Under the pieces are notes generated by a model. It was given only the letters and a program-made list of their open reading frames with translations. It ran no database searches and had not been told where the DNA came from. A stretch of 53,887 nucleotides of DNA, taken from the NCBI GenBank assembly GCA_016841825.1, contig JAENYK010000022.1, forward strand, positions 1 through 53,887. The letters run 5' to 3'. This stretch comes from Halothermothrix sp. (lineage in GTDB: Bacteria > Bacillota > Halanaerobiia > DY22613). Positions 19,138 through 45,599 of this stretch are shown here, one piece after another. The position numbers and the translations under genes were made by a program. The first letter of the stretch is position 1. Each line of letters begins with the position of its first letter.

Positions 19138-19166
19138 ATTATAACATTTTCAGCCCATATTGTCAA
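19138..19166 (-). promoter_or_regulatory. Promoter of rpsF-ssb-rpsR
   Basis: On the minus strand, -35 TTGACA (19161-19166), 17 nt spacer, -10 TATAAT (19138-19143): a full consensus match. Confidence 0.85.
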
Positions 19167-42998: not shown

Positions 42999-43208
42999 TT
43001 ATTTTAATGGATCATACCCTCCAGGATTGAAAGGATGACATCTCAAAATTCTCTTAATCCCTAAATATGTTCCCTTAATAGATCCATATTTTTCTATAGC
43101 TTGCAGCATATATTGGGAACAAGTCGGATAAAACCTGCACTTTCCAGGTTTGACGGGAGATACATACTTTTGATATAATCTTATTATCAAAATCAAAAAT
43201 TTTTTCAT
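42999..43208 (-). CDS. yidD: Membrane protein insertion efficiency factor YidD
   Basis: About 69 residues. The family core is clear: [20 protein letters not shown], then [12 protein letters not shown], and the end [12 protein letters not shown]. It helps YidC-dependent insertion. I chose the ATG at 43208 with GAAGG upstream over 43232. It sits between rnpA and yidC, as usual. Confidence 0.93.
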
Positions 43209-43249
43209 AGCAAACCTTCTCTCTTGTCTCACCTAAACTACAAATATAT

Positions 43250-43600
43250 TTATATCTTGTGCTTTAGAATTCCTGCTTTTGAAAATAATTTTATCAATCC
43301 TTTTTCAATCTGTTGATAAGTTGAATTTACAATTTTATATCGGGGTATAATAATTATATCCAATCCATTTCTAAACCTGTCCTGATTTAAACGATATATT
43401 TCTACTATCATTCGGCGAATTCGATTTCTAACCACCGCATTACCAATTTTTTTGCTTATAGAAAATCCTATCTTTCTGGTTGGATCATTTCGATGATGAA
43501 GTATATAAACCACCAGAATGTGATTAGCATAGGACTTCCCATTGTTATATACTTTTTGAAATTCGCAATTCTTTTTTAGTTTCTCTACAGGTTTATTCAT
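43250..43600 (-). CDS. rnpA: Ribonuclease P protein component
   Basis: About 116 residues. The RNR signature is visible in GNAVVRNRIRRMIVEIYR, with FSISKKIGNA just before it. It assists the RNase P RNA in cutting 5' leaders from tRNA precursors. The ATG at 43600 has TTAGGAGG 10 nt upstream. It is first in rnpA-yidD-yidC-jag. The gene that normally precedes it, rpmH, is missing. Confidence 0.95.
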   Translation of the reverse strand: MNKPVEKLKKNCEFQKVYNNGKSYANHILVVYILHHRNDPTRKIGFSISKKIGNAVVRNRIRRMIVEIYRLNQDRFRNGLDIIIIPRYKIVNSTYQQIEKGLIKLFSKAGILKHKI

Positions 43601-43650
43601 TAGAATAAAACCTCCTAACAAAAATCCACTATTCTTTCTAAATAATTTTT

Positions 43651-43660
43651 CCTCCTTTCA
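43651..43660 (-). promoter_or_regulatory. Orphan ribosome binding site
   Basis: TGAAAGGAGG on the minus strand is an ideal ribosome binding site, but no start codon with an open frame follows: ATT ATT is followed by a TAG stop. The rnpA site (43611-43618) is separate. It may be what remains of the rpmH translation start. Confidence 0.5.
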
Positions 43661-43707
43661 AGTAAATATATACAAATCTTCTCATCAATTTATCGGAGTC
43701 TATTAAA

Positions 43708-43736
43708 ATTATAGGCTAGAGGTAAAGGGATGTCAA
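43708..43736 (-). promoter_or_regulatory. Promoter of rnpA-yidD-yidC-jag
   Basis: On the minus strand, -35 TTGACA (43731-43736), 17 nt spacer, -10 TATAAT (43708-43713). This is a perfect consensus, as expected of an rpmH promoter. Confidence 0.9.
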
Positions 43737-43758
43737 GTTATACATTACTCTGGTAAAG

Positions 43759-44234: not shown

Positions 44235-45599
44235 ATGGTTGAAAAAGAGCGTATATCACTTATTTGGGAAGAGGCTTTATCAATAATTAGGTCTAAATTA
44301 TCAAAACCTAGTTATGATACATGGTTAAAGGCTACTGAAGCCATATCTCTGGATGAAAATCAAATAATAATACAGGTTCCCAATGAATTTTCCCGGGAAT
44401 GGCTAGAGAATCGATATGTTGAACTGATCAAAGATACATTATTTCAGCTTACCAACAAAGAATATGACATTTATTTCGTTACTCCTCAGACCAAAGATAA
44501 CTTTGCTGACAGTTATCAGTATCAACAGACCTTCTTAAAAAAACACCCTGAAGAGCAGGTAACGTCAAATCCAGTAACTTCTCTAAACCCAAAGTACACC
44601 TTTGAAACATTCGTTGTGGGTAACAGTAACCGATTCGCCCATGCAGCATCACTGGCTGTAGCTGAAGCTCCAGCGAAAGCTTACAACCCTCTGTTTATTT
44701 ATGGAGATGTAGGTTTAGGCAAAACTCACTTAATGCAGGCAATTGGTCATTACATTTTGAGGCATTCCCCACAATCTAATGTAGTTTATGTCTCATCAGA
44801 GACTTTTACCAATGAGCTAATTAATGCGATTCGTGACGACAAAACTACTGATTTTCGAAACAAATATCGGACAATAGACATTTTATTAGTCGATGATATT
44901 CAATTTGTAGCTGGTAAAGAGAGAACTCAGGAAGAGTTTTTCCATACTTTTAATGCTTTACACGAAGCAAACAAACAGATTATCTTATCCAGTGACCGTC
45001 CCCCCAAGGAGATTCCAACATTAGAGGACAGATTGCGCTCCAGATTTGAGTGGGGTCTAATTACTGATATTCAAAAACCAGATTATGAGACCAGAATGGC
45101 GATTTTGCGTAAAAAAGCGAACTTAGAAAATTTACAGGTTCCTGATGAAGTTATAGCATATATTGCTAACCATATTCAATCAAACATTCGAGAATTAGAA
45201 GGTGCTCTAATTAGAGTAGTAGCTTACTCTTCTCTGACCAATAAAATGATTACAGAAGAATTAGCCAGAGATGCTTTAAAAGACATCTTACCATCTACCA
45301 AAGAACGAGAGGTAACAACCAGGATGATTCAGGAGACTGTAACTGATTACTACAGTTTAAAGATCAAGGATATGACTTCCAAAACCCGAACGCAAACAGT
45401 TGCCTTTCCAAGACAGATAGCCATGTATCTCTGTCGTGAACTAACTAATGCCTCTCTTCCACAGATTGGCGAAGAATTTGGCGGGCGTGACCATACAACC
45501 GTGATACATGCCTGTAACAAAATTAGTGAAAAAATCGAACAAGATAGTTCTTTTAAAAATACCGTCGAAAAACTGATCGAAAAAATCAAAACTGGATAA
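44235..45599 (+). CDS. dnaA: Chromosomal replication initiator DnaA
   Basis: About 454 residues. Domain I (about 1-80) contains [15 protein letters not shown]. Domain III has Walker [17 protein letters not shown] and Walker [15 protein letters not shown]. Domain IV ends with [15 protein letters not shown], the DnaA-box reading helix. It opens oriC with ATP and loads the helicase. I chose the ATG at 44235, 7 nt after GGGAGG; an upstream GTG lies in a DnaA-box region. DnaA boxes before and after the gene suggest autoregulation. Confidence 0.97.

Follow-up and report, generated by a model that had tools for sequence, protein, structure and literature searches.

The window, by which we mean the whole 53,887-nucleotide stretch of DNA that was analyzed (Halothermothrix sp., assembly GCA_016841825.1, contig JAENYK010000022.1), contains the conserved neighborhood of dnaA and rnpA (Table 1). 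Ribosomal protein bL34, encoded by rpmH, is close to universal in bacteria. An initial annotation of this DNA had claimed that rpmH is missing between dnaA and rnpA, that a perfect promoter and an ideal ribosome binding site are kept, and that no L34 frame precedes the start of rnpA, and each of these observations was confirmed. Among minus-strand open reading frames of at least 20 amino acids within 43601-43740 there is no L34 frame, the only one found being a 5' extension of rnpA, and the promoter is present with both hexamers intact. Exact matches to TTGACA and TATAAT spaced by 17 bases occur twice in the window versus 0.01 expected. The Shine-Dalgarno-like ten-mer, which strictly occupies 43650-43659 and not 43651-43660 as first given, occurs once versus 0.15 expected; it is directly followed by ATTATTTAG, with no ATG, GTG or TTG start codon at a usable distance, and a search of the leader for Rfam elements returned two chance hits only.

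Two further features of the sequence can be recorded here. The second perfect promoter match in the window lies at 19138-19166 on the minus strand (TTGACAATATGGGCTGAAAATGTTATAAT). At start-codon distance from the ten-mer, the window reads ATT ATT TAG (43637-43645), a start-like codon followed by one codon and a stop, and the corresponding leader (L100) of G001, the single further family member among the genomes examined, reads CTG TAT TAG.

Table 1. Features of the rnpA-dnaA region, in window coordinates.
Feature	Position	Strand	Evidence or remark
Putative former rpmH promoter, today in front of rnpA	43708..43736	-	TTGACA-17-TATAAT
Orphan Shine-Dalgarno GAAAGGAGGA, most likely of the lost rpmH	43650..43659	-	Same site GAAAGGAGGAAAA in G001
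Junction of old leader and rnpA Shine-Dalgarno; position of rpmH (~135 bp) in other Bacillota	43617..43649	-	33 bases, without L34 frame
rnpA Shine-Dalgarno AGGAGGT	43610..43616	-	Sequence
rnpA, RNase P protein subunit, now first gene of the operon	43250..43600	-	PF00825, E 3.8e-30
yidD, next gene of the operon	42999..43232	-	PF01809, E 5.5e-33
yidC-like, jag-like, mnmE, mnmG, rsmG	After yidD, in operon order		Assigned by reading the ORF list, not by profile
dnaA, divergent neighbor marking the conserved dnaA-rpmH-rnpA position	44235..45599	+	PF00308, E 4.2e-78

The absence of L34 extends beyond this locus to the entire genome and to the class Halanaerobiia, in which the genome (5.08 Mb, 99.7% complete) is placed both by its kinship assignment and by a tree of ribosomal proteins. 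Six-frame searches of whole genomes from 59 members of the class, representing 30 genera and including 47 near-complete genomes, gave no match to the Pfam model for L34 (PF00468) in the window's own genome or in any other (0/59; 0/47 near-complete). A second profile, built from 20 Bacillota L34 proteins and run at E<=10, likewise found nothing in 50 of the 59, the window's own genome among them, and returned from the remaining nine only scattered fragments that cover 14-25 profile positions. By comparison, L36, which at 38 residues is even shorter than L34, was recovered from 56 of the 59 genomes and from all 47 near-complete ones, and rnpA from 55 of 59.

Comparison with relatives also shows the junction without rpmH in contiguous assemblies: it is present in G001, a finished genome of one contig (3,557,532 bp), in G015 (one contig of 2,469,596 bp) and in G024. 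L34 is missing from all complete members in which the flanking locus is assembled, and its absence is confined neither to one assembly nor to contig edges. The proposal that an assembly or sequencing error dropped about 140 bases with rpmH at 43620-43660 has some appeal, in that an orphan ribosome binding site that no start codon follows looks like a truncated gene. It is nevertheless extremely improbable: the finished G001 shares both the junction and the orphan site, rnpA comes immediately after the promoter or a contig edge in the 30 class loci inspected besides the window, and none of the 59 genomes, each assembled separately, has L34.

The initial annotation had alternatively predicted that L34 is encoded elsewhere, an expectation that the genome searches did not bear out. 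A broader form of this idea, in which L34 lies elsewhere in a strongly diverged form or has been replaced in the 50S subunit by an unrelated small basic protein, draws on the observation that ribosomal proteins, being short, are often badly annotated, a point made in the text of one survey (PMC3353972), and a replacement would indeed be invisible to an L34 profile. We consider it very unlikely, because two profiles searched against six-frame translations of 59 genomes yielded only the short fragments in nine of them, and because L34 is otherwise well conserved, with a mean column identity of 80% among 20 Bacillota, although an L34 in a form that no profile recognizes could in principle exist. 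The loss of the gene is real and class-wide, and reflects neither a sequencing gap nor relocation.

The distribution of L34 outside the class helps to place this event. In a sample of 398 Bacillota that included 15 class members, and thus about 383 others, L34 was found in 368 of the latter, so the sister lineages contain the protein. Nine of the 15 L34-less genomes from outside the class were tested for rnpA and none has it, which indicates that the locus is simply missing from those assemblies. With nine of the 15 L34-less outgroups covered by the rnpA test, Halanaerobiia is therefore the only group in the sample seen with rnpA but without rpmH. In a tree built from 14 ribosomal proteins, all 19 class members included fell on one branch (SH-aLRT 100), with the window's family sister to part of the class (support 88). 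The absence of L34 from all 59 genomes combined with the monophyly of the class argues for a single ancestral loss, as opposed to a sequencing gap, and one loss in the ancestor of the class is the likeliest, as well as the shortest, account of these data.

The promoter and leader that remain at the locus suggest how it was remade. Of the 31 class loci, counting that of the window, 30 have a promoter scoring at least 10/12 in front of rnpA; the other is truncated 52 nt upstream of this gene. The -10 box lies a median of 62 nt from the rnpA start in the class, and a median of 66 nt from the rpmH start in 91 rpmH loci of other bacteria, mostly Bacillota. Since a score of 10/12 is also reached by 22% of shuffled leaders, single scores mean little and it is the shared position that counts. 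Leaders in the window's family are longer and carry the extra Shine-Dalgarno site, which lies about 51 nt after the -10 box in the window and 36 nt after it in G001; given the 66-nt median of relatives, an rpmH Shine-Dalgarno would be expected at about this distance. By chance, AGGAGG arises in 1.6% of shuffles of the window leader. The orphan site is therefore read as most likely a remnant of the lost rpmH. The view of the initial annotation that promoter and unused site are both remnants of rpmH is consistent with these positions. The promoter itself is not orphaned, however: throughout the class it has been retained immediately ahead of rnpA. In another family of the class, two Shine-Dalgarno sites are also seen in the rnpA leader (L083 and L088, from G033 and G031).

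A different interpretation of the leader is that it was kept for regulation, with a strong Shine-Dalgarno site and an immediate stop holding a ribosome ahead of rnpA. Both the orphan site and the stop behind it are common to the two genera of the window's family even though the surrounding leader differs. An extra AGGAGG is nevertheless present in only 4 of 30 class leaders, there is no usual start codon, and the combination is known from two genomes only, so a regulatory role appears improbable.

If rpmH is gone, one could ask whether other parts of the 50S subunit have changed in its place. Together with uL22 and uL2, bL34 stabilizes the region around H49a and H35 of 23S rRNA (PMC9687910). 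23S loci were located by BLAST with the E. coli 23S sequence, and 12 class sequences were compared with 16-20 from other Bacillota; the window's own assembly has no full 23S, two truncated or odd loci (L145 and L154) were excluded from the position test, and 4 of the 20 outgroup loci are N-masked over most inspected sites. At the threshold chosen, 12 positions were class-specific, none of them in H35, H47, H49a or H50, and the contacts A749, A1272, A1614 and A1618 are kept in the class. Among the large-subunit proteins encoded in the S10-spc-alpha cluster, length differs only at the end of uL2, by two residues in the class, and in uL23 and uL4, and no extension of uL22 or uL2 that would fill the L34 site was found. 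The 23S rRNA and the S10-spc-alpha cluster showed neither a dedicated replacement protein nor an rRNA change that would mark the loss as compensated. One-residue insertions in uL23 (near residue 26) and uL4 (near residue 151) are common to the class (L178-L197) and nearly absent outside it.

The same gene cluster revealed that a second large-subunit protein has been lost, as uL30 (rpmD) is found in 0 of 59 class genomes. Between rpsE and rplO lie 15-43 nt in 19 class loci, whereas 16 of 20 outgroups have about 206-247 nt there; in the other four, no gap of uL30 size with a match is present. The uL30-less S10-spc loci comprise one in the window's own genome (G000:C15, L195) and others of the class among L178-L197. 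Loss of uL30 is less surprising than that of L34 because it is common in bacteria, the text of one survey giving it as missing from 145 of 995 genomes (PMC3353972). Across 14 large-subunit proteins, net positive charge per residue is 0.022-0.081 in the class versus 0.072-0.097 in outgroups, the largest drops being in uL3, uL5, uL6 and uL24 (L178-L197 versus L198-L217). This reduction is uneven across the class and smallest in the window's genome, whose value of 0.081 lies inside the outgroup range.

These data bear on the idea that the loss was itself an adaptation to salt. On this view, a cytoplasm rich in ions made very basic ribosomal proteins superfluous or even damaging, and L34, itself very basic, disappeared in the course of a broader shift. 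The reduced charge of the 14 proteins, most marked in uL3, uL5, uL6 and uL24, and the additional loss of uL30 are what such a shift would predict. However, the overlap of the window's genome with outgroups indicates that the loss is not mirrored in present-day charge. Moreover, uL30 has also been lost elsewhere, and Halanaerobiales do not have a genome-wide acidic proteome (PMC3817357), making an adaptive origin unlikely.

In the account we favor, rpmH was deleted once in the Halanaerobiia ancestor, the deletion falling between the ribosome binding sites of rpmH and rnpA, and the promoter and leader were retained and now serve rnpA directly. The class-wide loss of rpmH and the remaking of the locus can be asserted with high confidence. 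On the basis of gene content, the 50S subunit of these bacteria should lack both bL34 and uL30. L34 is known to be dispensable in B. subtilis, where the defect is suppressed by Mg2+ (PMC8844918), in S. mutans (PMC12815764) and in M. bovis (PMC4045577). If mutants of other Firmicutes are a guide, the main cost of losing L34 may be weakened packing and subunit joining that Mg2+ can offset. Halanaerobiales use ions for osmotic balance (PMC3817357), and it is conceivable, although on present evidence doubtful, that an ancestor relying on ions for this balance could tolerate the loss because of the ions in its cytoplasm. The ionic part of this proposal is weak, because B. subtilis lacking rpmH is severely impaired at 1.2 M NaCl (PMC8844918) and S. 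mutans lacking it fails on 0.3 M KCl (PMC12815764), the opposite of what a simple ionic rescue predicts. Simple ionic rescue was for this reason not accepted as a full account and is retained as no more than one component of the explanation. A wider and decidedly speculative extension is that Halanaerobiia are a natural, ancient lineage without L34 and uL30 in which 50S assembly depends on cytoplasmic ions and ribosomal protein content has been reshaped by ion-based osmoadaptation. Given that the window's genome lies in the outgroup charge range and that the known mutants are hurt by salt, the link to salt is a hypothesis and not a finding.

The existence of a class of ordinary-sized, free-living bacteria without bL34 illustrates that permanent loss of this protein is possible, and makes Halanaerobiia a natural comparison for analyzing the role of bL34 in 50S assembly. 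It also poses a testable question, as there is a paradox between the sensitivity of Bacillus and Streptococcus rpmH mutants to salt or KCl and the halophilic lifestyle of this class. In practical terms, L34 should not be counted among universal marker genes.

Galperin et al. 2021 reportedly described ribosomal protein losses specific to particular bacterial lineages, and this class may already be listed in the phyletic data of that work. No papers linking L34 and Halanaerobiia were found in a literature search that did not cover this likeliest earlier record. The new elements presented here are a count across the whole class, a dissection of the locus and the retention of the leader.

Compared with known systems, the locus resembles the dnaA-rpmH-rnpA region of other Bacillota in having a divergent dnaA, a strong sigma-70 promoter at the same distance and a Shine-Dalgarno site, followed in order by rnpA, yidD and yidC, but differs from it in that the class lacks an L34 frame (rpmH, PF00468) and rnpA comes first behind the promoter. 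As in B. subtilis and S. mutans strains with rpmH deletions (PMC8844918; PMC12815764), life with a 50S subunit devoid of bL34 is viable, although for the class such a subunit is predicted from gene content; those mutants need extra Mg2+ and are sensitive to salt or KCl, whereas in the naturally halophilic Halanaerobiia the loss is old and fixed. The event also resembles lineage-specific losses of other ribosomal proteins (uL30, bL25 and bS21) in the text of the PMC3353972 survey, in which a protein is cleanly dropped from a lineage, and uL30 has been lost here too. In contrast to that survey of 2012, where at most one to three of 995 genomes, left unnamed in the main text, have no bL34 (PMC3353972), the loss described here encompasses a whole class of free-living bacteria with genomes of up to 5 Mb.
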